Notes under the pieces: model-generated
The model's input: the letters and a program-made list of their open reading frames with translations, nothing else
Told to the model about the DNA's origin: nothing
The model's database searches: none
Made by a program: the position numbers and the translations under genes
From: a virus
DNA: 64,000 nt
Strand: one strand, 5' to 3'
Virus record (IMG/VR): IMGVR_UViG_3300050343_000256
Coordinates: 1 to 64,000 of that record
In this document: one piece after another, positions 7,944 to 50,741 of the stretch
How the letters are laid out: each line of letters opens with the position of its first letter
How positions within the stretch are numbered: position 1 is the first letter of the stretch

Positions 7944-8240
7944 ATGATTGCCAAGCTTCATCCCAGGTTCACGATGCTCACAGACGCAAGTCACAAATGG
8001 GTCAAAGTCAGGAAGTCATACCTAGAAGACTTAATTGGCAATGACTGGCGCAAGTACTTCACTTGCTCTAGCTACGAAAGAACTGACTTTGTCTACCTCG
8101 AGGAACAGAAAGACACGGTTACCTTTTTAAAGGAATGCCGCAAGAAAGACATCCACCCTGAGTTTGTCTGCGCCGAACACAAAACAGATCGACCCTCAAA
8201 GATTCGCGGCTACGAACCCTTGGCTCCCATGGATTTATGA
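7944..8240 (+). CDS. hypothetical protein, 98 aa
   Basis: Basic soluble protein with aromatic and charged residues (KWVKVRKSYLEDLIGNDWRKYF ... ERTDFVYLEEQKD). Its stop overlaps the next start as ATGA (8237), so it is in an operon with the following genes. Function unknown. Confidence 0.55.
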   Translation: MIAKLHPRFTMLTDASHKWVKVRKSYLEDLIGNDWRKYFTCSSYERTDFVYLEEQKDTVTFLKECRKKDIHPEFVCAEHKTDRPSKIRGYEPLAPMDL

Positions 8241-8818
8241 CTTCATCACAAACAGACCAGTCGTTTGTCAAAGATCTATTTGACACATTATTTGGGACCG
8301 TCGATACAGAAATGATCGACCTGTCCGATGACGACACGGCTGGCATTGAAGCTATTGACCTCGAAAAACTAGTCGTAACTGACATGACTGCATCCACTAA
8401 AGACAAGATCTCTGACGAATCAATCAGAGCAGCTCAACGCAAATTTGCCAAGGTTTACCAAGCCTTCTTCGAACAGTGGGAAACCCAGCAAGAACGTAGT
8501 GACTACGCAGACAGCGCTGGTGGTAAAGGCTGGATCGGTTCTCATTCCTGCAGTACTGCCAATGAGCACAGTTCCGTTGTTGCTTGGAGCTCAGACAGCG
8601 ACAAGATCTACACCATGGGACCCAAGTTCTACGTCGCCTTGGCGCGGTGGAACAGAAAAGCAGAGAAAGATGGATTCACTCCAATCAGATTCTCAAACTT
8701 ACACACGACTCCTTACATGCACACAAACTCAGAACGACGCCCCCTTCCCAAGGCAAGCGACTTCTGGAGTGCATTTCACGGTATCGGCGAACCACTTAGC
8801 TTCGCAATCACGTCATGA
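8237..8818 (+). CDS. hypothetical protein, 193 aa
   Basis: Acidic N-terminus (about residues 1-50, many Asp), then a helical segment (RAAQRKFAKVYQAFFEQW) and a C-terminal domain rich in Ser, His and aromatic residues. It overlaps both neighbours by ATGA junctions at 8237 and 8815. Function unknown. Confidence 0.6.
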   Translation: MTSSQTDQSFVKDLFDTLFGTVDTEMIDLSDDDTAGIEAIDLEKLVVTDMTASTKDKISDESIRAAQRKFAKVYQAFFEQWETQQERSDYADSAGGKGWIGSHSCSTANEHSSVVAWSSDSDKIYTMGPKFYVALARWNRKAEKDGFTPIRFSNLHTTPYMHTNSERRPLPKASDFWSAFHGIGEPLSFAITS

Positions 8819-9459
8819 ACCACTTAACTAAGACAATAACAATCAAGATCAAATCAAATGAACTTGAGCGAATTGATAAGGCAGCAGTAGAGCGCGGAAT
8901 TAGCCGTAGCGCTTTTATGCGTGAATGCTGCTTTAAGACCATAGAAGGGCCTCTCGCGGATAGCAACACTATTCGTTCAATTCTTCAGCGACTTGATCAC
9001 CTTGACACCCATCTACTAGCTAATGAGCTACACCTACACCACACTCCCATCACTCAGCCTGCTGAATTCAAAGTCATCAAGCTCAAGCGCAGTGGTCCCA
9101 GCCCGGTCAATCTGTTTCTTCCTGGGAAGCAGGTAAATGCCTGGCTGACGGTGGGACAAGCAGCGCGATCTCAATCTCTACAAACTTCTATGACTAACTA
9201 CACCACACCCATCACCAGCCTCAACGGCACAAGCCGTTCTGACTTGCATGAAGAATGGCTATCTGCCAGGACACTTCTGTCCCAGGCGCTAGAAGAACTG
9301 AAAGCAGCTACTTGTCATCCAAGAGACTTTCAGTTCCAAGAAAGTGGAGCTTGGGACAAAGCACAGCAAGAGAAGTCAACAGTTCTTGCATACGCAGAAG
9401 ACGCCTTGGATCTTGCGTCCGCATGGGTCGTTGCGACTCAACCTTCTAAGGAGAACTAA
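8815..9459 (+). CDS. ribbon-helix-helix protein with C-terminal extension, 214 aa
   Basis: Residues 5-45 (KTITIKIKSNELERIDKAA then GISRSAFMRECC) fit a ribbon-helix-helix DNA-binding fold: a short basic beta strand, helix, G-x-S-R-S-x-F turn and second helix. The remaining 170 residues are mostly helical and unassigned; an in-frame ATG near 9190 could start a separate 89-aa protein. Likely a DNA-binding regulator. Coupled to both neighbours by overlapping start and stop codons. Confidence 0.6.
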   Translation: MNHLTKTITIKIKSNELERIDKAAVERGISRSAFMRECCFKTIEGPLADSNTIRSILQRLDHLDTHLLANELHLHHTPITQPAEFKVIKLKRSGPSPVNLFLPGKQVNAWLTVGQAARSQSLQTSMTNYTTPITSLNGTSRSDLHEEWLSARTLLSQALEELKAATCHPRDFQFQESGAWDKAQQEKSTVLAYAEDALDLASAWVVATQPSKEN

Positions 9460-9632
9460 TGAAACACTTCAAAGTCGCTTACGAGCAACGCCTCTGGATT
9501 AACGGTCACGGCTACTCAACCAGCAGGCACTTCCAAGACATCTACGCCAAAGACATGGACCGCGCCCTGGGCAAGTGGTCTAACCAACAACTCGACAATC
9601 AATCGCTGCTCTGCATTACCGAACAATCATGA
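9459..9632 (+). CDS. hypothetical protein, 57 aa
   Basis: Short gene between the ribbon-helix-helix gene and 9629. Its ATG overlaps the upstream stop (TAATG) and its stop overlaps the next start (ATGA). The protein begins MKHFKVAYEQRLWINGHGYS and looks like a compact soluble domain. Function unknown. Confidence 0.6.
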   Translation: MKHFKVAYEQRLWINGHGYSTSRHFQDIYAKDMDRALGKWSNQQLDNQSLLCITEQS

Positions 9633-9853
9633 ACATTCATCTCATCGTCTCCGAGGCTGAGCAAATGGCCATCGTCAATGCTCTTGCTTTCTACAACGAC
9701 ATGCACATGTCGGATACAAACCGACTACTCGCTAAAGGTCACGCATTCCCCGACCTAAATCAATGGCGCACGGTCTTCACAGAAGACAATCGCGGCAACG
9801 ACTGCGAAGGCCCGATCGATCAGCTTGCTACCAAAATCGCTAACTGCGCATGA
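9629..9853 (+). CDS. hypothetical protein, 74 aa
   Basis: Small acidic protein (VSEAEQMAIVNALAFYNDM ... NDCEGPIDQLATKI) in an operon with the preceding genes via an ATGA overlap. No family recognised. Confidence 0.6.
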   Translation: MNIHLIVSEAEQMAIVNALAFYNDMHMSDTNRLLAKGHAFPDLNQWRTVFTEDNRGNDCEGPIDQLATKIANCA

Positions 9854-9904
9854 CACTACATGGACTTGTCATCATTCTGAACACACACCTTATCCAACCA
9901 ACCA

Positions 9905-10174
9905 ATGACCCTCTCAACCAACTTCATCGTTAAACTCACAGCAACAAAAGCTTCCCACAAACGTATTGGCTACGTCAACAACTCTGGTGACATAACTGAT
10001 CATATTTTTGAAGCAAGGATTTTTACTTTTAAAGAGCAAGCGCAAGCCATTGCTACTGCCTACTCAAGCAAGTCAAGCAAAGTTTCAGCTCGAGTTATCA
10101 AAGCACCTTCAGTTGGCAAGACACTTGAAAGTTTCAGTCGACACTTAGACAAATGCATTTCCACATCCAACTAA
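9905..10174 (+). CDS. hypothetical protein, 89 aa
   Basis: Small basic protein with a beta-rich N-terminus (NFIVKLTATKASHKRIGYVNN) followed by helix. It lies 3 bases before the next gene. Function unknown. Confidence 0.6.
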   Translation: MTLSTNFIVKLTATKASHKRIGYVNNSGDITDHIFEARIFTFKEQAQAIATAYSSKSSKVSARVIKAPSVGKTLESFSRHLDKCISTSN

Positions 10175-10177
10175 CCC

Positions 10178-10513
10178 ATGGAATTCACAGATCAAGACGC
10201 TCTTGACGCGATTGCACGTCTGATGAATGGCAATGAATGGGACTCAGAACTGGTCTCCCAAATTGCTGAAATCATTCATCACACCGGTCGCCCTCTTAAA
10301 GAGCCCGTGTATTTCCACAACACCACTCTTATCCAAGACATCGAGGGCTACCTCGCAGACAACCACACCCACCTATCCGAGCAACAGATCAAAGATGTTG
10401 CCCCCACCATTCAAGGGAAGCTTTCCTATGAAGGCATCTACACCCAGATCGATTCTCTTGTCTTGTATCTTCTGGGTAACTTAGGAGATAGCGAACAGAC
10501 TCCTCCTGAATAA
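10178..10513 (+). CDS. hypothetical protein, 111 aa
   Basis: Acidic helical protein (DQDALDAIARLMNGNEW ... SEQQIKDVAPTIQGKLSYEG). Same strand and closely spaced to both neighbours. Function unknown. Confidence 0.6.
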   Translation: MEFTDQDALDAIARLMNGNEWDSELVSQIAEIIHHTGRPLKEPVYFHNTTLIQDIEGYLADNHTHLSEQQIKDVAPTIQGKLSYEGIYTQIDSLVLYLLGNLGDSEQTPPE

Positions 10514-10544
10514 CTCTGAAGCTTGCGATGCCGCCGCAATCCCG

Positions 10545-10739
10545 ATGTACGACTTACTCGACATCGCCTGTGCTGCAATGGCTGCACTTGAATTAGACCG
10601 TATCAGCGATAAAGAACATGCTTTTAAACATGTAATGAATCGCGTTTACGGCTACATGACTCCTGCCGCCAGGGCGGACTACCAAGAGTGGGTAGAACGC
10701 AAAGGCTGGAAAGAGAAAGAGCAAATCATCCTGCCTTAA
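10545..10739 (+). CDS. hypothetical protein, 64 aa
   Basis: Small helical protein ending near a convergent minus-strand gene, which it overlaps by 4 bases. There is no terminator behind it on the plus strand before the inverted block. Function unknown. Confidence 0.5.
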   Translation: MYDLLDIACAAMAALELDRISDKEHAFKHVMNRVYGYMTPAARADYQEWVERKGWKEKEQIILP

Positions 10740-11275
10740 ACGCAGCGAAGCGTGGCCTTTAAATACCACGTTGTTTTGTTGGCGTCAGCCATCAACTCGG
10801 CGAGGTAGTTGGCCACGTCCAAGGCTTTCATTTCGATTGCCTCTGGCTCCAGCTCACAGATCATCTCGCACAAATCACAAAGATTTGCGTGATAGGTCAT
10901 CAGCATGTCCCTGCCGTCATGGCTGGTGACATTGTTGAAACACGCAGGCATCTCATCCTTCAGACCACATGCACACATCGGCATGTAAAAGTCCATCGCC
11001 CGAACAAACTCAGCGATTGTGTCGAACTGTTCCTGGTGAGCTTCATACCTCTCCTTTAGGAATCCATGCACAGCAATGAAGTTTGAACCCTCATAATTCA
11101 GGTGAATCAAGTGTGACTGAGTCTGCATCTCTTTCAAGAATGAAGCCAGTCGCACTAGATCCTGAACCAATGAGGAACAAGGGACCATAGCTTTCTCGTG
11201 AGGCACCACCATTACGCCATCTAAGGCAGTCGCTGGCATGTCAGCGTTATGCATCACAAGAGAATCTCTCAACAC
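10736..11275 (-). CDS. dps: Dps-like miniferritin, 179 aa
   Basis: Predicted Dps-family ferritin, which in bacteria assembles into a 12-subunit shell, oxidises and stores iron and can coat DNA. The core (QSHLIHLNYEGSNFIAVH, then EAHQEQFDTIAEFVRAM) aligns well with Dps. All four ferroxidase residues are present at the right spacing: H58, H70 (12 apart), D85 (15 further) and E89 (4 further), matching E. coli Dps H51, H63, D78 and E82. The length is typical. An insertion rich in Cys (about residues 101-142) is unusual. The gene sits on the minus strand with a small secreted-protein gene upstream. It probably protects host or phage DNA from iron-driven oxidation during infection. Confidence 0.85.
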   Translation of the reverse strand: MLRDSLVMHNADMPATALDGVMVVPHEKAMVPCSSLVQDLVRLASFLKEMQTQSHLIHLNYEGSNFIAVHGFLKERYEAHQEQFDTIAEFVRAMDFYMPMCACGLKDEMPACFNNVTSHDGRDMLMTYHANLCDLCEMICELEPEAIEMKALDVANYLAELMADANKTTWYLKATLRCV

Positions 11276-11293
11276 AGTTTAGTAACTACAGCT

Positions 11294-11494
11294 TCAGGCA
11301 AGCACCTCAACATCGCATGAAACGGGAGTCACATTTTTGAGCTCTCTATAAATCTCTATTTTGAGCTTTTGGTCTATGGACTCAGTACGAATCAAGCGCC
11401 TGACTACGGCTTGGACGGAGCTACATTCCATCTCGTAGGAAGCTTGCATAGGCGCAGGTGCCAGCAAAAGCCCTGCAATTAGAAACACTGTCAT
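11294..11494 (-). CDS. small secreted protein, 66 aa
   Basis: N-terminal signal peptide (MTVFLIAGLLLAPAPMQAS) with likely cleavage after about residue 18; two cysteines in the mature part could form a disulphide. It lies 18 bases upstream of the Dps-like gene in the same orientation, so the two are probably cotranscribed. Function unknown. Confidence 0.55.
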   Translation of the reverse strand: MTVFLIAGLLLAPAPMQASYEMECSSVQAVVRRLIRTESIDQKLKIEIYRELKNVTPVSCDVEVLA

Positions 11495-11505
11495 CTGTAA
11501 ATATT

Positions 11506-11533
11506 AGCTCTGCCGAAAGGTGGAGCTTTTTTT
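11506..11533 (+). terminator. Rho-independent terminator
   Basis: AGCTCTGCC - GAAA - GGTGGAGCT stem-loop then TTTTTTT. As at 5258-5307 it stands directly behind a minus-strand block, not behind a plus-strand gene. Confidence 0.8.
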
Positions 11534-11556
11534 ATGCACTTTTTCAACAGTGCATT
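11534..11556 (+). promoter_or_regulatory. conserved upstream element, copy 11
   Basis: ATGCACTTTTTCAACAGTGC then ATT, followed by a diverged ACTTCGCTT-like leader (TTCCTTCGTTTAATG) ending at the start codon 11578. Confidence 0.75.
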
Positions 11557-11577
11557 TTCAATTGATTCCTTCGTTTA

Positions 11578-12243
11578 ATGACTGATTCATCCGTGCTTGA
11601 TTTCATCCCGCAAAACTCGCCCCTCAGAACACTTAATTCTCCGAAAAGCGCATTTGGCTCAAAGCTAATACAAGTAGTCCAACCTGTCATGATCTTTTTG
11701 AGCTTTGAGAGCAGGTTCTACAAAGCCGAAAAGGTCTTCAACAAACACTCAAAAACAAGAGAGTATATCCCAAATGTTCACGGAAAAATCGAAGCAGTAA
11801 CCATAGTCAACCCAAAAAACACACAGCGGGTCAATGTTCAGGGTTCCTGCCTAAACGAAGAGACAAACGAGAAGGAACGCTGGATTCTCTCCTTTTCAAC
11901 TGTGAAGAAGCAACAAACCTACCTGTCTCTTCTGCCAAAGCTAAAAGTCGTTAACTTGCCTGAACAGTCGCTCACAATTCAGCCTCGGCTTGGAAACAGA
12001 GCAACGTTCATGGATGTATTTATCAATGGGGATCCAAGGCAAAGTGTTTACGCAAAGTCGATTGACTGCAGTGATAACGCACTCAACGAGACAGTTAACG
12101 CAATTAGGGAGCAGCTGGGTCTCCAACCGGAGTACCCAGAATGGATGAATCTAAGGACGGATCTTTCCCAGACTCAATCAGTCCCAACCAACTGCGAGAC
12201 CTACTCGGAAGAGCCGGAATCCAGCTCCCAGTCTCAGATCTGA
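11578..12243 (+). CDS. hypothetical protein, 221 aa
   Basis: Soluble protein with mixed alpha/beta composition; the first 170 residues look structured, the tail is Ser/Gln/Glu-rich. The start is placed by the conserved element. It overlaps the next gene by about 100 bases. Function unknown. Confidence 0.6.
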   Translation: MTDSSVLDFIPQNSPLRTLNSPKSAFGSKLIQVVQPVMIFLSFESRFYKAEKVFNKHSKTREYIPNVHGKIEAVTIVNPKNTQRVNVQGSCLNEETNEKERWILSFSTVKKQQTYLSLLPKLKVVNLPEQSLTIQPRLGNRATFMDVFINGDPRQSVYAKSIDCSDNALNETVNAIREQLGLQPEYPEWMNLRTDLSQTQSVPTNCETYSEEPESSSQSQI

Positions 12244-12704
12244 TCCCCAGGCTGAGCTTCAAAGACAGCAAGCTCGATAGTGGCGGTATCTGCGATTTGC
12301 AGTACGTCATTATCCAGCTCATTCAAAACTCAGAGGACGGGGTTGAGTTCATTCAGCTCTTGACCCTGGCTCTCTACATGAGTGAGCTGTGTTTCACAGC
12401 CATGGAGGGCTCCATCGACGAAGCCAACGAGCTGTACGAAGGAGCAGACAAACTGAGCGTCATCAAAGAGCTTGTAAGCCTTCGGGACTCATTTAAGCGT
12501 TCATTGAGCGAACTCTCGACGATCCATCTAACCCTGATGGCATCAGCAACGTTCGATCGGATCAACCGACTACGCCCATCACTAGGCAGCGCAGCAGGAC
12601 AGAAGGACTTCCATTCCCATCTGCTTCTCAGCGATGCATTACTCGAATCACTAAAACAAACCCGCAAAGACGCGGAACCATTTCTCGACGCAAACCAACC
12701 ATGA
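12141..12704 (+). CDS. hypothetical helical protein, 187 aa
   Basis: Mostly helical acidic protein with Leu-rich helices (IIQLIQNSEDGVEFIQLL, ELVSLRDSFKRSLSEL). The start at 12141 gives a long overlap with the upstream gene; a later start would shorten it, but no clear ribosome site decides. The stop overlaps the DUF932 gene start (ATGA). Function unknown. Confidence 0.55.
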   Translation: MDESKDGSFPDSISPNQLRDLLGRAGIQLPVSDLIPRLSFKDSKLDSGGICDLQYVIIQLIQNSEDGVEFIQLLTLALYMSELCFTAMEGSIDEANELYEGADKLSVIKELVSLRDSFKRSLSELSTIHLTLMASATFDRINRLRPSLGSAAGQKDFHSHLLLSDALLESLKQTRKDAEPFLDANQP

Positions 12705-13693
12705 CGATCACCCTCGACCGCAAACTCTTCAAAGGCAACGCAGCTCTTGTTGCTCCTGGCTCAAGCACGACCGAAATCCTTGAATCGGTAGATGCCAACT
12801 TCAACGTCAACGCCGTATCCCCCGAGTTTGGAGGTCGCACCTACAACGACTACAAGCTGTGGCTTCGTTCAGATAACGGCGACTCACTCGGCCAATTCGG
12901 CAACAGAAGGCAGCCGCAAGACCCTCAGGTCATTGGGGACTTCTTCCAAAGCTTCTGCGACAACTCTGAAAAACGCATCTCCTTAGATGTTGTTGGCTCG
13001 ATCAATAAGGGCAAGACCCTTTATATGGCAAGCCGATTGGCTGGTGACACCACACAGCTAAACGATCCGACAGACCTCAGAGGTATGGCGATCAAACGCG
13101 AGGACAGCGAGCACTACATCGCTCGAGCCGATCGCACTGAACACTGGCTCATGCTTCTCGTCCACTACGGCGAAAGCCTCTCAACCAAAGCGGTTGTGTT
13201 CAGCAATGAGCTGGTCTGCACCAATGGCATGGCTCTCAAGACCGTCGACAAATCAATGGTGATTCCGCACCGGTCCTTAGCTGACGGCTTCCAAGTCGAG
13301 CAGATCCTCAACCAAGGCCTCCGCAGCAGCCAGGCCTACATGCTGATGAAAAACCGCTTTCAAAACGAACCACTTCAAATTGCTGATGGCTGCAGTCTCA
13401 TTCGAGAATTCCACGACGATCCAGAAGGCGATAGCCAGGTCGTCAAGAACCTCGAGCGCATCTACCGCTATGGATTAATCGGCGGCGATCTACCAGAACG
13501 CACCAACAACTTCTGGCGTCTTGCAAATGCACACACCCAATACACTTCGCACTCCTATGTGAGCAAGGCTGACCCAGGCAAGACTCTTCTGTCTCAACTG
13601 GAAGGCAGCAAAGCAAGAAGCAACAGGGATTGGATGCAGTTCCTTGAGTCTCAATTCACAGCTGGCGCCGACAGAACCTTAGTCCTCGCCTGA
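12701..13693 (+). CDS. DUF932 (phage/plasmid-like) protein, 330 aa
   Basis: Resembles the DUF932 family found in phages and plasmids. Visible features are the YNDYKLWLRSDNGDSLGQFG segment followed by QPQDPQVIGDFFQSF, and the central VVFSNELVCTNGMALKT. The length is near that usual for the family. The molecular function of DUF932 is not established, but members often lie near recombination and replication genes, which agrees with the SSB and clamp-like genes downstream. A strong terminator follows at 13728-13750. Confidence 0.75.
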   Translation: MTITLDRKLFKGNAALVAPGSSTTEILESVDANFNVNAVSPEFGGRTYNDYKLWLRSDNGDSLGQFGNRRQPQDPQVIGDFFQSFCDNSEKRISLDVVGSINKGKTLYMASRLAGDTTQLNDPTDLRGMAIKREDSEHYIARADRTEHWLMLLVHYGESLSTKAVVFSNELVCTNGMALKTVDKSMVIPHRSLADGFQVEQILNQGLRSSQAYMLMKNRFQNEPLQIADGCSLIREFHDDPEGDSQVVKNLERIYRYGLIGGDLPERTNNFWRLANAHTQYTSHSYVSKADPGKTLLSQLEGSKARSNRDWMQFLESQFTAGADRTLVLA

Positions 13694-13727
13694 AGCATCA
13701 GGCAAATAAAACAGAAAACACCGCATG

Positions 13728-13750
13728 AGGGGGTTGCGCACCCCCTTTTT
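13728..13750 (+). terminator. Rho-independent terminator
   Basis: AGGGGGT - TGCGC - ACCCCCT stem-loop followed by TTTTT; closes the DUF932 operon. Confidence 0.9.
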
Positions 13751-13806
13751 CATGTGCAAAATGCGTGCTCAGTCTTTCGACATCATCCTTGTGCTTCCCA
13801 CCAGCC

Positions 13807-14013
13807 ATGCAACGTATGACCAGCAGAAACAGTGAACGCCTACTTGGTGTGTCAGTCCTGATTGCCTCCCTCACAGCATTCTTTGTCAGCCCTTGGCCTA
13901 ATGACCGCATCATTCTTCAACAAAGAGAACGCTCAACTCAGGAGGTGTACTCAATGCGGATCGATGAAGGTGTTCGTAGTCGAATGCAGACACAGTTCGA
14001 TATACGGACTTGA
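13807..14013 (+). CDS. possible small membrane protein, 68 aa
   Basis: One hydrophobic segment (LLGVSVLIASLTAFFV, about residues 10-26) and a charged C-terminus. It overlaps the next gene out of frame, so it is uncertain. Function unknown. Confidence 0.35.
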   Translation: MQRMTSRNSERLLGVSVLIASLTAFFVSPWPNDRIILQQRERSTQEVYSMRIDEGVRSRMQTQFDIRT

Positions 14014-22879: not shown

Positions 22880-23626
22880 GTGTCTAATAACTTTCTCCCA
22901 ACTCTCTACGACGCACGCAACAATCGACTATTTGGTGCTCGCCCTGATGGCACATATGCTTACGTAGATCCCAACCCCACGACAAGGAATAGTCAGAACC
23001 CTGACTACATTTACGTTTCAGATACAGAAAATATAATCGAATTCGAAGTCCCAACAGGGAAGCATTACGTTGTTTACCTACCTGATGGGACCCTCGATAA
23101 TTACATCAATAACTCTTACCCAACTAACAGCGAAATCCAAGTCGTCAACATCGGACAGGGCTCGCTCGAGGTCATTTTCTTTGGTTATACCTACGAACCC
23201 AAGTCTGTAAACGGCACTCAGCTCACCGGCCAATGGGCGGAAGCAAAGCTGCGATGCCGTGGCGAAAACGACTGGATCGTCAATGGTCAAGTCGGACCAT
23301 CAAACGCCAAGAATTACTCAGTAGTCAACAGTGGTTCTGGCGCCTACGCTTTTACCGGCGAGGGCCTCACAAGCGAGTCAAATCCAAGCTTGACACTCAT
23401 GGTGAACCAGGAACTTATCCTTACCGTGGACGCCACTGGACATCCACTATGGATAAAAGATGTCGGAGAGACTGGCGAAGGGACTGCAAGTATTGATGGT
23501 GCGGGACCTGTCGATAACAACGGCGCACAAACAGCGGTTATCAGGTTCCGTGCGTTCACTGCTGGCACTTACTATTACAACTGCCAGTACCACGCTGGAA
23601 TGAGGGGAACAATTACGGTCAGCTAA
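22880..23626 (+). CDS. cupredoxin (plastocyanin-like) domain protein, 248 aa
   Basis: The C-terminal 110 residues form a type-1 copper domain: H188 (TGHPLWIKD), then C235-x2-H238-x2-M241 in YYYNCQYHAGMRG, the classical His-Cys-His-Met ligand set. The N-terminal 140 residues are beta-rich with repeated Asn/Gly/Tyr turns and a WIVNGQVGPSN segment like those of phage virion fibres. No signal peptide is seen, unlike host plastocyanin. The start is GTG at 22880. It could be a virion or cytoplasmic copper protein, or a non-metal fold relict, though all ligands are kept. Confidence 0.75.
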   Translation: MSNNFLPTLYDARNNRLFGARPDGTYAYVDPNPTTRNSQNPDYIYVSDTENIIEFEVPTGKHYVVYLPDGTLDNYINNSYPTNSEIQVVNIGQGSLEVIFFGYTYEPKSVNGTQLTGQWAEAKLRCRGENDWIVNGQVGPSNAKNYSVVNSGSGAYAFTGEGLTSESNPSLTLMVNQELILTVDATGHPLWIKDVGETGEGTASIDGAGPVDNNGAQTAVIRFRAFTAGTYYYNCQYHAGMRGTITVS

Positions 23627-24253
23627 TTAACCCAGAGCAGCTTTCGCACTAAAGGCTGCAGTGATGTCCTCGGCAGTCTCGTCAAGAATCCAGGCGAAAC
23701 TCTCGACGCAATCATTGTCAAACTTTCCGTGCGACAGATCTTCCAAAACTTCACCTGTCAACCCAAGTTTCGTGAGAATTTTCTGGCTGACATTCTTAGC
23801 TTTTAGCTGCTCAGCTGGCCATGTATAAAGAGGGTCTTCATGAACGACCTCAACGTTTTCAGCAAAGGGGAGACTGTAAGCATCACTCGCACTGGCCGCT
23901 GCGAGGATCTTTGGCATATCAGCTTGCACGCTTTCCTTGCGTATCCAAGACGTTACATCCTCAATGGTTACCTGTGATACATATTCTCCTGTCTTGTAGT
24001 AAGCACTCAATGCAGTCAGGCTGACCCCTAAGGTCTTTGCAAGGTTCTCCTGAATCTCCAAACCGACCTTGAAAGGCGATATAGAACCCCTCAAATACTT
24101 TGTCAGTGTTCCAATCGTGATCGATATTTCAGCACACAACTCTCGCTGCGACAGCCTGTTGGTGATCATGCTTTGCTTTAACGCATTAACAAAGCGTTGA
24201 TTGACCTCAGAGCAACTGTCGTGTGTTAGGTGTCGTTCGATTTGCGCGTTCAT
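23627..24253 (-). CDS. Cro/CI-family helix-turn-helix regulator, 208 aa
   Basis: Residues 25-80 (KQSMITNRLSQRELCAEISITIGTLTKYLRG ... NLAKTLGVSLTALS) form an XRE-type helix-turn-helix. The C-terminal domain is unassigned, without the Ser-Lys peptidase signature of CI/LexA that I could detect. It is divergently placed from the PrimPol-VapE genes and convergent with the cupredoxin gene. An inverted repeat at 24280-24295 just upstream of its start is a candidate operator. Probably a repressor of the replication module. Confidence 0.75.
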   Translation of the reverse strand: MNAQIERHLTHDSCSEVNQRFVNALKQSMITNRLSQRELCAEISITIGTLTKYLRGSISPFKVGLEIQENLAKTLGVSLTALSAYYKTGEYVSQVTIEDVTSWIRKESVQADMPKILAAASASDAYSLPFAENVEVVHEDPLYTWPAEQLKAKNVSQKILTKLGLTGEVLEDLSHGKFDNDCVESFAWILDETAEDITAAFSAKAALG

Positions 24254-30900: not shown

Positions 30901-31626
30901 TTGGAAGCCCCGGCATTCGAACCGTTCAAAGCCACTTTTGTTGATGGCAATCAGTTCCCCCAGCGATTGGCCTATACGGCTTTGCATGCTGATTACTCAG
31001 AGAACTTTTCTGATAGCAGCGAGCTCCCTGAAGACAAAGCTGGACGAATCGTTGTTGATCGATTACTGAAGGGCGGCAAAGGCCACTGGGGGCCTCTCGA
31101 GCACCCGTCCATGAGCCTGATGCTTAGGGCAGATCACAACACCATGATGCAGCTGCGAACTCACCGCGTGGGCTGCACGTTCGATTATCAGTCAATGCGG
31201 TATAGCGGTGAGCGCATTCGTAAATGTGCCCAACGAAAAATCAGGCCTGAAGAAGTCTTTTACGTGCGGCCACCTGGCACTTATTGGGACCGCCAGGGCG
31301 ATAAATATATCTGGACAAATAGTCAAGCCGAAGAGACATTGGCGATGTGTCTTTCGTCTGCAATTGATTACGACCGTCTACGACAATCAGGAGCCTCAGA
31401 AGAACACTCGCGGTCAGTGCTGGCAACTGGATACCTTCAGCATGGGCTAGTAACTGGAACGCTCAGGTTCTGGCTTCATCTTCTAGATGTACGAGCGAAA
31501 GCCGATGCTCAAATGGAAATTCGAGACTTAATGAACTTAATCGAGTTACAAGTTCAGCGCTGGGTCCCCGAAATATGGGGATGGTATCAACAACACCGCC
31601 ACCACAAAGCACTACTCGCTCCGTAA
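30901..31626 (+). CDS. thyX: flavin-dependent thymidylate synthase ThyX, 241 aa
   Basis: FAD-dependent methylation of dUMP to dTMP using methylene-tetrahydrofolate. The ThyX motif is visible as R86-T-H88-R89 ... S98-M-R100-Y-S102 (QLRTHRVGCTFDYQSMRYS), in the arrangement seen in cyanobacterial ThyX, preceded by HWGPLEHPSM. The length is as expected. The start is TTG at 30901; no ATG precedes the conserved region. It works with the dCMP deaminase at 28265 to supply dTTP during infection. Confidence 0.92.
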   Translation: MEAPAFEPFKATFVDGNQFPQRLAYTALHADYSENFSDSSELPEDKAGRIVVDRLLKGGKGHWGPLEHPSMSLMLRADHNTMMQLRTHRVGCTFDYQSMRYSGERIRKCAQRKIRPEEVFYVRPPGTYWDRQGDKYIWTNSQAEETLAMCLSSAIDYDRLRQSGASEEHSRSVLATGYLQHGLVTGTLRFWLHLLDVRAKADAQMEIRDLMNLIELQVQRWVPEIWGWYQQHRHHKALLAP

Positions 31627-34170: not shown

Positions 34171-34515
34171 ATGTTCTTGACGGTGAAGACGCGATACGAC
34201 CTTATCCCCTTCAAATCCATAGGAGAAATCGCAGACGTTCTCGCCTATGGAGCTGATAAATACACAGCCAACAACTGGTGTCGAGGCACAAACTGGGGCC
34301 GGTATTTCGCTGCTCTGTGCAGGCACATCTTTGCCTGGTGGGCTGGAGAAGACAAAGACCCAGAGACTGGCTTCTCCCATCTCGCTCATGCAGGGTGCTG
34401 CTTGATCTTCCTAATGGAATATCAACGCAATCAGTGGGGAGAAGACGATCGCTTCTCCGGTCCCGATGGGAAACACTTCACTAAATACGACGGTATCGAT
34501 TTAGATCTCAGCTAG
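34171..34515 (+). CDS. DUF5664 dATP/dGTP diphosphohydrolase-like (MazG-type) protein, 114 aa
   Basis: The family signature is complete: RYDLIPFKSIGEIADVLAYG, A-x-KYTANNWCRG, CRHIFAWWAGEDKDPETG then SHLAHAGCC. DUF5664 proteins are MazG-like all-alpha enzymes, and relatives in phage S-2L (MazZ) hydrolyse dGTP/dATP. The acidic metal-binding residues (GED-x-D) are kept. It is a plus-strand gene surrounded by minus-strand genes. With dCMP deaminase and ThyX it implies dNTP-pool remodelling; no PurZ partner was found in the window. Confidence 0.8.
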   Translation: MFLTVKTRYDLIPFKSIGEIADVLAYGADKYTANNWCRGTNWGRYFAALCRHIFAWWAGEDKDPETGFSHLAHAGCCLIFLMEYQRNQWGEDDRFSGPDGKHFTKYDGIDLDLS

Positions 34516-35128
34516 TATGAATCGCTCTTGCGTTGAAGGCAATAGACCACCGCTCACCCTCACCTTTGAACGGACCTACCGAATGCTGCTGTAAAGCAGG
34601 GAACACATAGAAGTCTCGCTCAACAGGTGTAAACGTAGTTTTCATTCCCATTTGGAACTTGTCTGGGTTGAAGCTTTCTGGCCCATGGAATTCAATACAG
34701 CCTCCTTGTTGTTCCAAGATTTGCTCCGGTACTTTTAGATACAAAACACCAGAAAATTCTTGACTATGAACATGGGGAGGGTTGTAATCACCAGCCTCCT
34801 GCACATTCAGCCACATATCATTTACTTGGATTGAATATGTACCTGCAGTCCAATACATTTGCCCCATAAGCGGCCAGTCTTTCTTGGATTCTTCAATCCA
34901 ATCGACGCATGACTTGCTAAAGAGAATGTCTAGCTCATTCCACGTGAAATGATTGGTTGGTATTGCAAGCTGCTGCTTAAGGCTCCCTGCAAGATCGTTC
35001 GATTTGTCAATGGCATCCGGGCTATCTATGAGCTCTTCACAGAGGACAACTAGATCCTCATGCAGCACTTCGCTGATCACACCTTTCCCGACGTTCCTCG
35101 GGAACAAGTGAAACATTTTCGCAAGCAT
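34508..35128 (-). CDS. 2OG-Fe(II) oxygenase family protein, 206 aa
   Basis: The C-terminal two thirds is a double-stranded beta-helix: SIQVNDMWLNVQEAGDYNPPHVHSQE (metal His region) then SGVLYLKVP, and the distal QHSVGPFKGEGERWSIAFN with the second metal His and the Arg that holds 2-oxoglutarate. This subfamily (TIGR02466-like) is common in cyanophages; substrates are unknown. It overlaps the membrane-protein gene start upstream by one base. Confidence 0.8.
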   Translation of the reverse strand: MLAKMFHLFPRNVGKGVISEVLHEDLVVLCEELIDSPDAIDKSNDLAGSLKQQLAIPTNHFTWNELDILFSKSCVDWIEESKKDWPLMGQMYWTAGTYSIQVNDMWLNVQEAGDYNPPHVHSQEFSGVLYLKVPEQILEQQGGCIEFHGPESFNPDKFQMGMKTTFTPVERDFYVFPALQQHSVGPFKGEGERWSIAFNARAIHTS

Positions 35129-37615: not shown

Positions 37616-37891
37616 ATGACCGATAACGCCACAGCTGCTCGGCTCCGTCGAGAGTTTTACCTTGCCAAGGCGCAAAAGGTCCGCGACCGCCCTGGGCTCA
37701 AGTACTCATTTACTGAGAACGGCAAGATACGCTTCGGCTTCGCTTCAGGCAGCTGCAAGCGCCAGATTCGTGATGCTGTGCTGAAGGCTCACCCCGACGC
37801 CACTTTTATTCCGTCAGGGTCACACCTTCCTCGGTCGTCACAGTCGTTAAAGAGTGACCGCCCTCTGCAAGCAGCTCATAAGCGGCACTGA
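37616..37891 (+). CDS. hypothetical basic protein, 91 aa
   Basis: Arg/Lys-rich protein (AARLRREFYLAKAQKVRDRP ... SCKRQIRDAVLKAHPDATFI). Its last 28 codons overlap the 3' end of the recombinase gene and look non-native, so its original end may have been replaced. Function unknown. Confidence 0.5.
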   Translation: MTDNATAARLRREFYLAKAQKVRDRPGLKYSFTENGKIRFGFASGSCKRQIRDAVLKAHPDATFIPSGSHLPRSSQSLKSDRPLQAAHKRH

Positions 37892-39581
37892 AGTCGATTG
37901 GCTGCCAGTCGATCTCCCCCTCGCCAATCGAAAGGCCAAGAAGCAATGCTTCGCTGTCGACATGAATGCCAATGCCGAGTTGCTTTAAAGCTGCATTGGC
38001 TTGATGACGTTGCTCCTGAGAGCTAGTTCCGTTAATTAGATCAAACTTCAGGGGTTCAATAATTGTCTCCACAGCTTCGAGAGCTAATGGATTTTCGTTC
38101 CTCGACAGCTTGGCCCGTATATCAGCCAGCCGTATGTCGACACTTCGCTCTTCCTGATCTTTGTCTGCGATCCGATGCTGCAGAGTGCTGAAAATACTGT
38201 CGAAAGCTGGACCTCCAATTTCAGCGGCACGGCCAATGCTTTCCTGAATGTTTAAACGTTCGGTGTTGACCTGTTCTTTCTTAAGTAAAAGTCGATCTAC
38301 TTGAGATCGCAGGTTCACAGCTTCTCCTTCTACGTTTCCACTGCCGCTTAATTGCAGCAAGGAATTTAGGTTTATCCGGGACAAGACAATTGCCAATACG
38401 TCACGCATCGGCAAGTAGGGACGTCGACATTCTTCGCTGTTCATTCGTGAGCGACATGCGATATATCTGATCAATGCATTCGGTGGATGGCCTCCGACAC
38501 ACGTGGACATCGAGCCGCCGCATGCACAACGAGTCAGGCCGCGCCCAATCCAATGCATCTTGGTGTTTGGGCCTGGACGATTTTTTGTTCTATTCCGAGC
38601 GGCGATGATCGAGATCACTTCTTCGACTTCTCGCTTTGGAAGAACAGGAGGAAATACGCCCTCAACGATTTCTTTTGGCTCTTGCGCAGCTCCACGAACA
38701 ACGCCTTGCTGAGCGCGTGGGTCGTAGTAATTACCACTGCCATCCTTCAGCTCTCCATTTGGACCCCGCTTAAGAGGCTTCCACGCCCCTTTCGGCTTGA
38801 TCGCTACAGCTCCATAAATCTGGTGTGACGCACGGATCATTGAAGAGAGATTGCTAGCCGTCCACATAGATGCCTTCATCGGCTTGTGGCCCTCTTCGTT
38901 GAGAACTTTTGCCGTCTGCGAGTACCCGTAATTCTTAAGCAGTTCCATCGCCTTGGCGATAGCAACCGCCTTTTCGTTCAGCTCCCAACGCTGACGCTTC
39001 TCATCCCAGCTCACCCAACAAGGAGCGTTTTGCTTCTTCCTGCTTACAACACCACTGGCTAATTGTTTACGAACCTCTTCCCAGTTGTATTCCTGTCGAC
39101 GCGCAAGCCGCAGCGAATACTCATGAGCAGCTTGACATTTCAGGACCAGCATTATGAGTGCTGCGCCATCCCCATCGATTTTCTCTTTGTTGTAAAAATT
39201 ATTGTCTTCTATCGTCACGATCGTGACGTCTGCGTTGATGAGCCTTAGGAAGACTCCTTCCAGCGCCTTGCGACTCTTCATCCGAGATACCCGATCGACA
39301 GCTTCGATAAGAAGTACCGGGTTAGTACCAAGCAAGCGCCGATCAGCCATCTCTAGAAAGCGGTCCAGGGGGCTTCCTTTCCGCATGTGCTTGGCGTGAT
39401 ATGCCGATTTACCTGGATCGCTTAGCGCTCGATCGTCAGCCAGTTCGAGCCCATGCCGATCGCACCAGTTGAGAGCGTCGGATCCCTGCCGGGCAAGGCC
39501 AGAACCTTTGGTCTGAATGATATGAGAGACCCTCTCGAAAGACCAGATCGTGCCTGCCTTGAAGCCCAGATCTCTGTCCAC
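37806..39581 (-). CDS. large serine recombinase (integrase), 591 aa
   Basis: Site-specific recombinase. The N-terminal catalytic domain has the nucleophile S19 in SFERVS and later NPVLLIEAVDRVSRM; the recombinase domain follows, with an Arg-rich helix and NEEGHKPMKASMWTASNLSSMI. A zinc ribbon (CACGG ... C ... ACRSRMNSEEC) and a long coiled coil (about 430-490) complete the large-serine plan. The GTG start at 39581 gives a slightly short N-terminus. Probably phage integration, or inversion of a local segment. Confidence 0.88.
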   Translation of the reverse strand: MDRDLGFKAGTIWSFERVSHIIQTKGSGLARQGSDALNWCDRHGLELADDRALSDPGKSAYHAKHMRKGSPLDRFLEMADRRLLGTNPVLLIEAVDRVSRMKSRKALEGVFLRLINADVTIVTIEDNNFYNKEKIDGDGAALIMLVLKCQAAHEYSLRLARRQEYNWEEVRKQLASGVVSRKKQNAPCWVSWDEKRQRWELNEKAVAIAKAMELLKNYGYSQTAKVLNEEGHKPMKASMWTASNLSSMIRASHQIYGAVAIKPKGAWKPLKRGPNGELKDGSGNYYDPRAQQGVVRGAAQEPKEIVEGVFPPVLPKREVEEVISIIAARNRTKNRPGPNTKMHWIGRGLTRCACGGSMSTCVGGHPPNALIRYIACRSRMNSEECRRPYLPMRDVLAIVLSRINLNSLLQLSGSGNVEGEAVNLRSQVDRLLLKKEQVNTERLNIQESIGRAAEIGGPAFDSIFSTLQHRIADKDQEERSVDIRLADIRAKLSRNENPLALEAVETIIEPLKFDLINGTSSQEQRHQANAALKQLGIGIHVDSEALLLGLSIGEGEIDWQPIDFSAAYELLAEGGHSLTTVTTEEGVTLTE

Positions 39582-47059: not shown

Positions 47060-47319
47060 TATTTAAACACTGGTAGTCCAGTCATAACCTTGCCACCTTT
47101 CGGCATAAGTTTTTCTTGAGACTTAAGCAAGTCAGTTTTCATGGCTTCCATATCTTTCGTGATATAACCAAACTCTTCCGTCAATCTTTCTTCGACTTGA
47201 AGAGCAACATCAGCCTGAAACAGCATAAGCTTCGCCAGTACAGTTTTATAAGCCCCATAAAAAACCAAGTTCAATGCGACTAAATTTGCAGTAACTAACA
47301 ACTTAAATATTAGATTCAT
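47059..47319 (-). CDS. membrane-anchored coiled-coil protein, 86 aa
   Basis: N-terminal membrane helix (LIFKLLVTANLVALNLVFYG) and a charged coiled coil (ALQVEERLTEEFGYITKDM). It overlaps neighbours by one base each. Function unknown; similar plan to the proteins at 28018 and 35128. Confidence 0.55.
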   Translation of the reverse strand: MNLIFKLLVTANLVALNLVFYGAYKTVLAKLMLFQADVALQVEERLTEEFGYITKDMEAMKTDLLKSQEKLMPKGGKVMTGLPVFK

Positions 47320-48437
47320 TATTCTGATCCGTCAACAATTATTCTGGCGTATTGAACAATTACCAAGCCATCGCCACCGGCAGGAACTCCAGTCATTTTG
47401 TAATACCCAGTACCACCACCACCACCGGCATTACCGCCTGATCCGGGCTGAGCGTAGCCAGGAGAACCACCACCACCACCAAGCATCCCTCCATTTCCAG
47501 AATTTGGTGGATACTCAGTGGTGGTATATTTTCCACCACCGCCACCACCAGCTCCAGGCCCACCGTCAGTGCCAGGAACTTGCTGTCTGTAACTGCTTTT
47601 TACGGTGTACATACCTGATGTTCCACCACCACCGCCTAAAAAAATTAAATTTGCATCGATAATCGAATTACCTTTACCTGATTCGCCTCTTGATTGGCAG
47701 CCATCTCCATAAGTGGTGTAATTCATAGAAATGCATCCAGAGCTGCCGCCGGCTCCTGAAAGTCCACCACCTGCCGGGTCGGGATGGTAGGAAGTCGAAG
47801 GAGACGCATTCTTCGGACATGTACTCATTGAGCCGCCACCTGAGCCCCCTGTGTAGTTTCCATTACTACCTACTCCTCCAATTCCGCCACCACCGCCACC
47901 TGCATATGTACTGCCTGAACCACCGGCAAAACCATCGCTAACTCCATAAGGAGCAGGGGCCGAACCGCCTCCGCCTCCACCTGCATTGTTAGAAGCAGCG
48001 TAATAACCACTTCCTCCAGATCCACCTCTTTTATTTACATCTCCACCGACACCTAGTCCGCCAACTCCATAACCACTAGAGCCTTGATTGGCCGTATTAA
48101 ATGAACCTCCATTTCCACCAGTCGCAGAGCAGTGACTGCCAAAACTTGAAGATCCTGCAACTGCATTGGCATTATTTGTGCCGCTGCCAATCGTTACCGC
48201 TTCGGTACTACCAAGTGCGCTTACGTCAATCAATTTGACCGCAAGTCCACCACCACCTCCGCCATACGCAGTAGTGGGAGAAAAACTGTAGTAGTCGTCT
48301 CCCATACCTCCAGCTCCCCAGACATGGACCAAGACTGGCTTTGTTTCGTCTATGTCAGAAGGCTTTGTCCATGTGAATGAACCTCTGCGAGTATAGATTC
48401 TGTATTCGTTGTATAAGTAAGAATTAAAATTCGCCAT
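47319..48437 (-). CDS. glycine-rich fibre-like protein, type A copy 2, 372 aa
   Basis: Starts MANFNSYLYNEYRIYTRRGSF and continues with FTWTKPSDIDETKPVLVHVWGAGG, the phage glycine-rich domain that opens many tail-fibre-like proteins, then about 300 residues of GGGGG-bounded repeats, and the end GGDGLVIVQYARI. Paralog of 49629-50741. Likely a receptor-contacting virion fibre tip or adhesin. Confidence 0.8.
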   Translation of the reverse strand: MANFNSYLYNEYRIYTRRGSFTWTKPSDIDETKPVLVHVWGAGGMGDDYYSFSPTTAYGGGGGGLAVKLIDVSALGSTEAVTIGSGTNNANAVAGSSSFGSHCSATGGNGGSFNTANQGSSGYGVGGLGVGGDVNKRGGSGGSGYYAASNNAGGGGGGSAPAPYGVSDGFAGGSGSTYAGGGGGGIGGVGSNGNYTGGSGGGSMSTCPKNASPSTSYHPDPAGGGLSGAGGSSGCISMNYTTYGDGCQSRGESGKGNSIIDANLIFLGGGGGTSGMYTVKSSYRQQVPGTDGGPGAGGGGGGKYTTTEYPPNSGNGGMLGGGGGSPGYAQPGSGGNAGGGGGTGYYKMTGVPAGGDGLVIVQYARIIVDGSE

Positions 48438-48438
48438 C

Positions 48439-49563
48439 TCAGGCCACCTTGTACTGAATAATAATTAGGCCATGTCCGCCAAATCCGGGATAGCTGGTAG
48501 CACCACCACCACCGCCAGCGCTACCTCCATATCCTGCAGAGTTTTGTCCAGCAGCTCCACCACCACCGCCAAGGATTCCACCACCGCCGGCAACTAGGTA
48601 GGGATTGACTTCGCCATGGGTGCCGCATCCACCACCACCACCACCAGGGCCCCCTGGTGCGCCTGATGAATAAGCAGTTCCACTGCTGACCAACTTGGAA
48701 GTTCCGCCACCTCCACCACCGCCGCCAAACAAGATCTGGTTAGGAGTAAGTTTTACGCCTCCATCTCCTGATTTTGCGGGTGTCCCGTTACCGCCGCCGT
48801 AAGTGACATAGCCGTAATAGAGGCAACCTCCTGATCCACCGCCTCCTAATAAGCCTGGACCTCCATTACCGCAAGCGGCATACGAGCTGTTATCTGCGTA
48901 TTGTCCTGCCCCAGCGGATCCACCGCCTCCGCCTCCTGTGTAAGACCCGTATCCACCAGGCCCTCCGATTCCGCCTCCGCCGCCAGCGCCATACGAGCTA
49001 GTACCGCCACCGGGGAAGCCATCAGAATCGCCATAAGGAGCAGGGGCTGAACCACCACCACCACCGCCACAGTTAGTACCTGTGGAGTAATACGCACTGC
49101 CACCTGTTCCACCACGCTTATTAATATCTCCGCCGATACCTAGTCCGCCAACACCCCAATTAGCCCCAGAACCTTGATTGGCAGTGGAATTACTACCACC
49201 ATTTCCGCCAGTCGCAGAACAATGAGACCCGAAAGATGAAGATCCGCCTGTACCACTTGTCGACTGGTTTCCTGTGCCAATTGCTAAAGATTCAGAAGAA
49301 CCTAAGGCGCTTGCATTTATGTATTTAACGGCGAGTCCGCCACCGCCTCCCCCATAGAGACTACTACTACTACCTCCAGAGCCTCCAGCTCCCCAAACAT
49401 GAACAAGAATTCTCGATCCATCAACTAAACCAGCTGGCTTTTCCCAGGTTATAGAACCTGGATGCCAAAACATTTCAAATTTATTAAATTCTCCTGGGAG
49501 TCCGCCACCGCCGCCGCCGCCGCCTCCGCCTGATCCACCTGTGCCCGGAAATCTTCTGCCCAT
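48439..49563 (-). CDS. glycine-rich fibre-like protein, type B copy 2, 374 aa
   Basis: Type B N-terminus MGRRFPGTGGSGG and a linker LPGEFNKFEMFW, then ITWEKPAGLVDGSRILVHVWGAGG and the glycine-rich body, ending GGHGLIIIQYKVA. Paralog of 50742-51890. It alternates with the type A genes. Confidence 0.8.
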   Translation of the reverse strand: MGRRFPGTGGSGGGGGGGGGGLPGEFNKFEMFWHPGSITWEKPAGLVDGSRILVHVWGAGGSGGSSSSLYGGGGGGLAVKYINASALGSSESLAIGTGNQSTSGTGGSSSFGSHCSATGGNGGSNSTANQGSGANWGVGGLGIGGDINKRGGTGGSAYYSTGTNCGGGGGGSAPAPYGDSDGFPGGGTSSYGAGGGGGIGGPGGYGSYTGGGGGGSAGAGQYADNSSYAACGNGGPGLLGGGGSGGCLYYGYVTYGGGNGTPAKSGDGGVKLTPNQILFGGGGGGGGTSKLVSSGTAYSSGAPGGPGGGGGGCGTHGEVNPYLVAGGGGILGGGGGAAGQNSAGYGGSAGGGGGATSYPGFGGHGLIIIQYKVA

Positions 49564-49628
49564 TTAATTAATTAACGCGCAACAATTGAGCGTCGGCTCT
49601 TGACTAAGTTTAGCGGTTACAGGAATTA

Positions 49629-50741
49629 CTAAGATTCGTGCAATCGTGCGTACTGGATGATAACAAGACCATCTCCGCCTTTTGGCGCTCGATATGACGA
49701 ATAGCCGTTCCCGCCTGATCCACCAGCATTGCCGCCGTCAGCAGAGGTGTAGCCACTGCCAGAGGCACCACCGCCGCCACCAAGAACTCCGCCGCTGCCG
49801 GGGCTTTGGAAAACGTAGTTTGCTGCATCGCTATGGCCTGTCCCCCCACCTCCAGCACCGGGGCCTCCACATGTGCCATGTGCGTGAGCATTGCCGTTAC
49901 TTGTGAAATTCATGCCGCCAGTGCCACCTCCGCCCCCGAAAAAGATTTGATTGGGGGTAAGGATCATTCCGCCTTTTGCATTTTCTGGCTCTTGCGCTAC
50001 GCCGCCGCCGTAAGTTGTGTAGTGATGCCTGGGGGCGCCACCACTGCTCCCAGCCCCGAAAAGCCCACAACCACCTGGAACTTGGTTGTAAGAACTGCTA
50101 GGAGATGCTGAAGACGCAGGTGCAGACATCGAGCCGCCGCCAGAACCAGCGACATAACTCCCATTAGTACCTGATCCCCCTATACCTGCTCCACCGCCAC
50201 CTGCATATGTACTGGCTGAACCACCGGTGAAACCATTACTAGTTCCGTAAGGAGCAGGGGCCGAACCGCCTCCGCCTCCCCCGGAATTTGAGTTGGTTGA
50301 GAAATAACCACTGCCACCTGTTCCACCACGCTTATTAATATCTCCGCCAACGCCCATCCCGCCGACAGCGTAATCAGCCGAAGAACCTTCATTAGCAGCG
50401 GAATATGCGCCGCCATTTCCGCCAGTCGCAGAACAATGAGACCCGAAAGATGAAGATCCGCCACGGGCATTGGAATTATTACTACCTAAGCCGCAGACAA
50501 CAGTTTCGGTAGAGCCAAGTGCGCCCACATTAACCAATTTGACAGCAAGGCCACCGCCACCACCACCATTGCGAGTTTTGGTTGATTGATGATAATTTGC
50601 GCAACCTCCCCCACCAGCTCCCCAAACATGCACCAAGATTGGCTTTGATGCATCTATATCAGATGGCTTTGTCCAGACATGAGCGCCTTCAAACGAGAAA
50701 ATCTCAATAGCTGTATAAAGATAGGAGTGAAAGTTAGCCAT
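49629..50741 (-). CDS. glycine-rich fibre-like protein, type A copy 1, 370 aa
   Basis: MANFHSYLYTAIEIFSFEGA then HVWTKPSDIDASKPILVHVWGAGG; the glycine-rich body and the end GGDGLVIIQYARL are as in 47319-48437. A 65-base gap separates it from the following type B gene, the only real gap in the four-gene array. Confidence 0.8.
   Translation of the reverse strand: MANFHSYLYTAIEIFSFEGAHVWTKPSDIDASKPILVHVWGAGGGGCANYHQSTKTRNGGGGGGLAVKLVNVGALGSTETVVCGLGSNNSNARGGSSSFGSHCSATGGNGGAYSAANEGSSADYAVGGMGVGGDINKRGGTGGSGYFSTNSNSGGGGGGSAPAPYGTSNGFTGGSASTYAGGGGAGIGGSGTNGSYVAGSGGGSMSAPASSASPSSSYNQVPGGCGLFGAGSSGGAPRHHYTTYGGGVAQEPENAKGGMILTPNQIFFGGGGGTGGMNFTSNGNAHAHGTCGGPGAGGGGTGHSDAANYVFQSPGSGGVLGGGGGASGSGYTSADGGNAGGSGGNGYSSYRAPKGGDGLVIIQYARLHES

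Follow-up and report, generated by a model that had tools for sequence, protein, structure and literature searches.

The window analysed here, a 64,000-nt stretch that makes up bases 1-64000 of an 84,978-base IMG/VR virus record, encodes a Dps-family miniferritin whose iron site, as aligned sequences indicate, is remodelled across a clade of cyanophage proteins (hereafter, clade A) in a way absent from the ordinary bacterial Dps compared. On balance we favour the view that this is a virus-evolved Dps, i.e., an iron-oxidising, iron-holding cage that is probably made during infection of a cyanobacterium.

The open reading frame (ORF) matched Pfam Ferritin (E = 1.3e-8, over the cut-off) and PHROG 3636 (E = 2.5e-24), and a six-member profile searched against PDB sequences retrieved solved Dps proteins, with Campylobacter 3kwo at the top (9.1e-13). 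Profile-profile comparison (hhalign) of the phage family with cellular Dps gave a probability of 98.6 (E = 1.1e-15), and the NCBIfam Dps models matched the window protein far under their cut-offs (25.8 vs 114 bits). AlphaFold2, supplied with 46 aligned sequences, returned a monomer model (mean pLDDT 89.5; block means of 95-99 for residues 41-179) with predicted helices at residues 34-60, 66-93, 102-107, 121-148, and 152-178, forming a four-helix bundle with a short BC helix in the Dps arrangement. Structural comparison of the model (Foldseek/VIA-align) recovered Dps chains at Z 20-22, among them MrgA 2chp (Z 22.4, 1.4 Å, 145 residues). The initial annotation had asserted that the helices surrounding the iron ligands match Dps and had proposed structure prediction as a check, with a model lacking the four-helix ferritin fold as the refuting outcome; the predicted four-helix Dps fold agrees with the annotation, and that outcome did not occur. 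With this model and the Pfam and PHROG matches, we regard the ORF as genuine and, as far as sequence and model go, its product is a Dps-family miniferritin.

Translation from the GTG gives the product listed in Table 1, and an alternative start, the in-frame ATG at position 11254 (codon 8), would give a 172-aa product. Among clade-A pairs restricted to 75-93% protein identity and dS <2, the median dN/dS was 0.11 (maximum 0.28; 627 pairs; median dS 1.05); limited to dS <1 (284 pairs), the median was 0.13. The clade-A Dps gene is under purifying selection.

Table 1 Coordinates of the Dps gene, its diagnostic codons and its neighbours in the window, and of a clade-B Dps. Counts refer to 71 distinct phage sequences.
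Feature	Position	Strand	Remarks
Dps-family miniferritin gene	10736..11275	minus	179 aa from GTG
H58 codon	11102..11104	minus	aligned with E. coli Dps H51; His 71/71
H70 codon	11066..11068	minus	aligned with E. coli H63; 71/71
K74 codon	11054..11056	minus	aligned with E. coli D67; changed position; K 58, G 13 of 71
H80 codon	11036..11038	minus	clade-specific His, 71/71
D85 codon	11021..11023	minus	aligned with E. coli D78; 71/71
E89 codon	11009..11011	minus	aligned with E. coli E82; 71/71
C101 codon	10973..10975	minus	only invariant Cys in the BC segment, 71/71
Y128 codon	10892..10894	minus	clade-specific, 71/71
Y157 codon	10805..10807	minus	clade-typical, 68/71
64-aa ORF	10545..10739	plus	convergent with dps
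66-aa ORF	11294..11494	minus	18 nt upstream of dps; signal-peptide-like start (by eye); PHROG 504 E = 1.7e-4, weak
Two terminator-like stem-loops	11506 and 11534 (11506-11555)	plus	between the dps side and the divergent 221-aa ORF
221-aa ORF	11578..12243	plus	divergent neighbour; 32% homologue divergent from dps in locus L007
DUF932 protein	12701..13693	plus	syntenic; 53% to the ORF upstream of dps in locus L008
Clade-B Dps	L333, 1480-1938	plus	also loci L334-L375; HWN and Gln/Glu at position 67

The iron site was compared across 71 distinct phage rows (the window, Synechococcus phage S-EIV1, and 69 IMG/VR sequences) and 65 cellular rows (34 cyanobacterial and 31 other Dps), with sites aligned to E. 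coli Dps and eight plasmid-borne Dps, to which the window protein has ~20% identity. An "intact ferroxidase centre" made of H58, H70, D85, and E89 at the Dps spacing had been claimed for the window protein. The four residues are indeed present at that spacing and invariant in all phage rows (Table 1). The first 80 loci were recruited by motifs containing H80 or H55/H58, which biases the counts; in a recount based on C-terminal motifs (80 loci, ORF recovered in 79, 60 distinct sequences, locus L459 dropped), which shares many contigs with the first locus set and whose ORF filter required P-x-C, W-x-x-K/R-A/S, and an NF or N-x-E string, the four were kept in 60/60. The word "intact" fits these main ligands; the centre as a whole is not canonically so, because its second iron position and surroundings are altered. 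Canonical Dps (E. coli Dps, Bacillus MrgA, Listeria Dps) share the fold and the H51/H63/D78/E82 equivalents with the phage proteins, whereas the latter have Lys or Gly at position 67 (residue 74 of the window protein; K 45, G 14, and R 1 in the recount), Leu (62/71) or Phe (9/71) for Trp52, the residue following the first His, and the additional H80, Y128, and Y157. The position of E. coli Arg83 is mostly Phe in clade A. In cellular Dps, position 67 is Glu in 43/65 rows (22/34 cyanobacterial, 21/31 other) and K or G in 0/65. Since accepted Dps can also be non-acidic there (Met in 9/31 other rows, N/Q/S/H in 9/34 cyanobacterial rows), the missing acidic residue is no ground for exclusion from the family.

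In the mechanism we prefer, Dps would be expressed in the infected cyanobacterium and, going by its predicted fold, would assemble into a 12-subunit cage. Fe2+ would enter at the dimer-interface site, with H58, D85, and E89 (plus H70) as putative ligands in a geometry suggested by the alignment, be oxidised there and then be stored in the cavity. Such a cage would lessen Fenton damage to replicating phage DNA, with host photosynthesis as the presumed source of peroxide, and could set iron aside during the failure of photosystems and other iron proteins. The second iron position would be altered by the Lys or Gly that replaces acidic residue 67; with Lys67, each site may retain a single firm iron position, and slower or oxidant-specific chemistry is expected as a result. 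The His80/Tyr128/Tyr157 set, apparently buried, may assume electron trapping from the absent Trp.

Loss of the acidic residue 67 need not abolish activity, because NpDps4 is non-acidic there (Asn67) and is nonetheless a working cyanobacterial ferroxidase, which binds two irons aided by His78, His63, and His164, according to an excerpt of PMC6675082. Several features speak against the preferred reading, however: the phage Lys67 differs from the neutral Asn67, the aligned phage proteins have no equivalents of the compensating His78 and His164, and the Trp adjoining the first His is lost. The His-type cyanobacterial centre (NpDps4, TeDpsA; same excerpt) shares the non-acidic position 67 with the phage proteins, and the folds are similar to the model (2vxx, Z 20.9; 5hjh, Z 21.3). 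It was rejected as a description of the phage site, which is not of the NpDps4 type because the 78 equivalent is Asp (D85) in 71/71 rows and position 171, the 164 equivalent, is M/F/Y/K and never His in 21 clade-A rows.

Two further properties of the protein had been raised or could be expected. A Cys-rich insertion, described as unusual for Dps, did not stand up: the stretch that runs from D95 up to helix C (residues 95-121) is 27 residues long in the window protein, compared with 26-28 across the 71 phage rows, 26-27 among 34 cyanobacterial Dps, and 26 in 30 other Dps, so there is no insertion beyond one residue. Apart from C101, its cysteines are less conserved (C103 in 31/71, C112 in 8/71), and C133, C136, and C140 in helix C are private to the window sequence among the 71 rows. 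DNA binding via a basic or Lys-rich tail is unlikely for the window protein, judging from its composition, because the tail has a charge of -2 and the whole protein -13 (K+R minus D+E); the 71 rows span tail charges of -6 to +3, with 23 rows at +2 or more and 15 at 0 or less. The title of PDB 1o9r indicates that DNA protection by Dps does not always involve binding to the DNA.

The genomic context of dps bears on whether the cage might instead be mainly virion- or head-associated, packaged with the phage head or helping to build it, with iron chemistry secondary. A same-strand gene of one family lies upstream of dps in 55/85 loci, with a gap of 26-49 nt in 52 of these 55, and its member in locus L003 matched PHROG 1645 "virion structural protein" (4.8e-142). 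This upstream protein occurs mainly in cyanophages, as the names of the matching phage records start with Synechococcus in 130/173 and with Cyanophage in 29/173. BFVD phage proteins named prohead protease also match the Dps model. Despite this linkage we regard such a role as unlikely, though the best of the alternatives. The upstream gene was not seen in 30/85 loci including S-EIV1 (a few of these end early upstream), and the window dps sits amid plus-strand ORFs without structural annotation, 63 kb from the terminase gene of the record. PHROG 1645 had no match in the window record, in a search whose control was likewise without a match, and the upstream virion family had none by blastp against ORFs of at least 70 aa in bases 1-84000. 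The virion association is, moreover, known here from annotation.

The 66-aa ORF next to the window dps (Table 1) is a possible operon partner; by eye, no ORF resembling it was found beside dps in eight relatives, and other small signal- or membrane-like ORFs lie on the dps strand just downstream of dps in loci L034 (10528-10734) and L082 (10461-10664). An ORF similar to the convergent one lies 3' of dps in loci L008 (~1 kb away) and L059 (~0.25 kb). The DUF932 gene and dps are on opposite strands in both the window and L008. No promoter was detected in a scan between 10500 and 11700, where 1.3 would be expected, the two terminator-like stems compare with 0.8 expected, and an Rfam search of 8000-14000 gave no match.

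A different site of chemistry was also considered, in which the interface centre is degenerate and the reaction has moved to a buried intrabundle site made of His80, Tyr128, Tyr157, and nearby acids, comparable to the bacterioferritin-type centre of DpsL proteins with its intrasubunit E/E/H/E/E/H ligands. Eight positions (T52, Y61, H80, S118, Y128, E143, Y157, T175) each carry one polar residue in at least 80% of 21 clade-A rows and are mostly hydrophobic in the 65 cellular rows, H80 and Y128 being without exception in the phage rows. In the cellular rows, position 80 is V/I/L/M/F/W in 89%, position 128 Leu in 54/65, and position 157 Leu in 45/65. DpsL proteins show that an intrasubunit centre is possible in the Dps fold, as described in an excerpt of PMC11150526. 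The invariance of H58/H70/D85/E89 would, however, be needless for a dead site, and no ExxH ligand pair was seen on helix B; hhalign against cyanobacterial ferritin ORFs (loci L186-L208) did not place the ferritin ligands (probability 0.3%). We give this relocation a small chance. A combined scenario is somewhat less likely again: clade A would have been rebuilt with the second iron position off, the Trp gone and the buried His-Tyr-Tyr as a new redox or metal site, in a cage delivered in or made with the head, whose iron chemistry would act on the genome, whether packaged or freshly injected.

To return to the favoured reading of an iron-oxidising cage, its setting in a cyanobacterium is deduced from the terminase. 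That of the record has 50.7% identity over 94% of its length to the S-EIV1 terminase, and the other 14 matches listed (of 261 matching records) have 22.8-23.8%. Because of this kinship the window phage likely infects a cyanobacterium, which supports the photosynthetic host that the initial annotation had assumed; the support comes via kinship, with no PF00124 photosystem match anywhere in the record. The record's own terminase is a 510-aa protein with no insert. Three S-EIV1-like terminases (S-EIV1 itself, L460 281-2821, 846 codons; G404, open frame of 1101 aa; G409, 895 aa) were matched in pieces inside one long frame, as inteins would give.

The claim that the Dps is phage-encoded was borne out, and the gene belongs to an S-EIV1-like cyanophage lineage. 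In IMG/VR, a profile search matched relatives in 335 stretches; the 80 best were retrieved. S-EIV1-type terminase was present on 24/24 long Dps contigs tested (24 of the 26 loci among L003-L086 on contigs of at least 70 kb). In a tree of 88 rows, the phage proteins formed one clade (100/100) apart from 37 cyanobacterial and 30 other rows, with warnings about long branches that meet and the letter make-up of the window row. In a tree of 99 rows, from which the long-branch cyanobacterial sequences L255, L216, and L223 were left out and whose bootstrap was not settled, the phage clade (100/99) again stood apart from 34 cyanobacterial and 31 other rows. The clade sits on a very long branch. Across 84,980 genomes of bacteria and archaea, the clade motifs gave 35 pattern matches and no relative, and with a looser pattern the top cellular relatives, among the matches listed, had ~25% identity (E = 4e-10). 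Of 386 genomes in the cyanobacterial phylum, only 8 matched the phage profile at E ≤ 1e-3, the lowest value being 4.6e-12; in four phage records the values were 9.5e-78 to 1e-97.

By these sequence criteria, the clade-A Dps is a long-standing gene of the S-EIV1-like lineage and no recent host theft. A recently captured host Dps, i.e., an ordinary auxiliary metabolic gene, would fit the PF00210 matches in 59/59 cyanobacterial genomes sampled, which indicate that ferritin-superfamily genes are common there, and the Synechococcus host of S-EIV1, but it was rejected as highly improbable on both trees and the search of cyanobacterial genomes, even though the very long stem could mask true kin. Against a universal gene of the lineage, 12/16 terminase-bearing contigs (20-67 kb, including 66.6 and 59.1 kb), which may be fragments, had no Dps.

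Clade A has a sister (100/96) in clade B, a second type of phage Dps represented by 42 loci. Clade B keeps HWN with Q/E at position 67, has AEH for the ordinary AER, has neither H80 nor Y128, and is a bridge to ordinary Dps. S-EIV1-type terminase was found in 6/12 clade-B records tested, the other six being 40-61 kb, and in a further clade-B record of 86 kb (G391). Of the Dps-bearing records, 16 were tested (12 B, 4 A), and all had a single Dps gene; types A and B are thus sister Dps that replace each other, one per record. Exactly one Dps in 16/16 records suggests that iron or peroxide control matters in cyanophage infection.

Phage Dps genes as such are already known, including the S-EIV1 homologue, and the window gene falls within PHROG 3636, "DNA binding protein", a label silent on the altered centre (6/6 members of the first alignment match it). 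The S-EIV1 protein (AHV82153.1, "DNA-binding ferritin-like protein", KJ410740) has 45.5% identity over 88% of the window query and shares its invariant residues, and the terminases are also related, but it differs in having G at position 74 and a Pro/Lys tail. Its gene adjoins a sulfate adenylyltransferase gene, whereas an ATP sulfurylase search of the window record gave no match. The Dps of phage S-SRM01 (QPX48251) has Gly at the residue 67 position, as in part of clade A, so this change also occurs outside the clade; the S-SRM01 protein keeps HW, has neither H80 nor Y128, and falls outside clade A on a long branch. Lactobacillus phage Semele has another phage Dps (Dps fold or family), an excerpt of PMC6669764 describes Dps or ferritin-like proteins in Lactobacillus phages, and several BFVD phage entries are named Dps. 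That Dps genes are "rarely reported in phages", as had been stated, is therefore too strong.

Starvation, Dps, and ferritin are not mentioned in the main text of the S-SRM01 paper (PMC8557907), and a full-text literature search for S-EIV1 with ferritin found nothing. Among the papers listed, none concerned Dps in S-EIV1-like phages or the altered centre by its title or abstract start; a prior mention in Chenard 2015 is possible. With that proviso for the S-EIV1 paper, we found no description of a centre remodelled throughout the clade, of two sister types A and B, or of a virion gene closely linked to dps (52/85 clade-A loci). These findings provide a case, open to experiment, in which a virus lineage has retained an iron-handling cage and redesigned it; the conserved changes pinpoint residues for mutation, and the virion gene linked to dps in some of the clade prompts one to ask whether the cage travels in the virion.

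Other features of the phage and its relatives were also observed. Three of the BFVD entries named prohead protease (A0A6J7WPK9, A0A6J7XDU5, A0A6J7WIS1) matched the Dps model with TM 0.69-0.76 on query length and are possible natural Dps-protease fusions. Four adjacent look-alike Gly-rich ORFs of 370-382 aa (47319-51890, minus), one with a weak, under-cut-off match to Pfam Gly_rich_2 (2.1e-4), could be paralogues with a tail or receptor-binding role. A temperate lifestyle is possible for the phage, which encodes a large serine-recombinase-like protein (37806-39581, minus; Pfam Recombinase 1.2e-4, just over the cut-off) and a Cro/CI-type HTH protein (23627-24253, minus; HTH_3 5.8e-5). The last 35 residues of the ORF at 22880-23626 (plus) resemble the copper-binding end of plastocyanin/cupredoxin (E 0.003-0.005, under the cut-off). 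Redox enzymes of the same phage include a 2OG-Fe(II) oxygenase (34508-35128, minus; 6.8e-19) and ThyX (30901-31626, plus; 1.9e-30).
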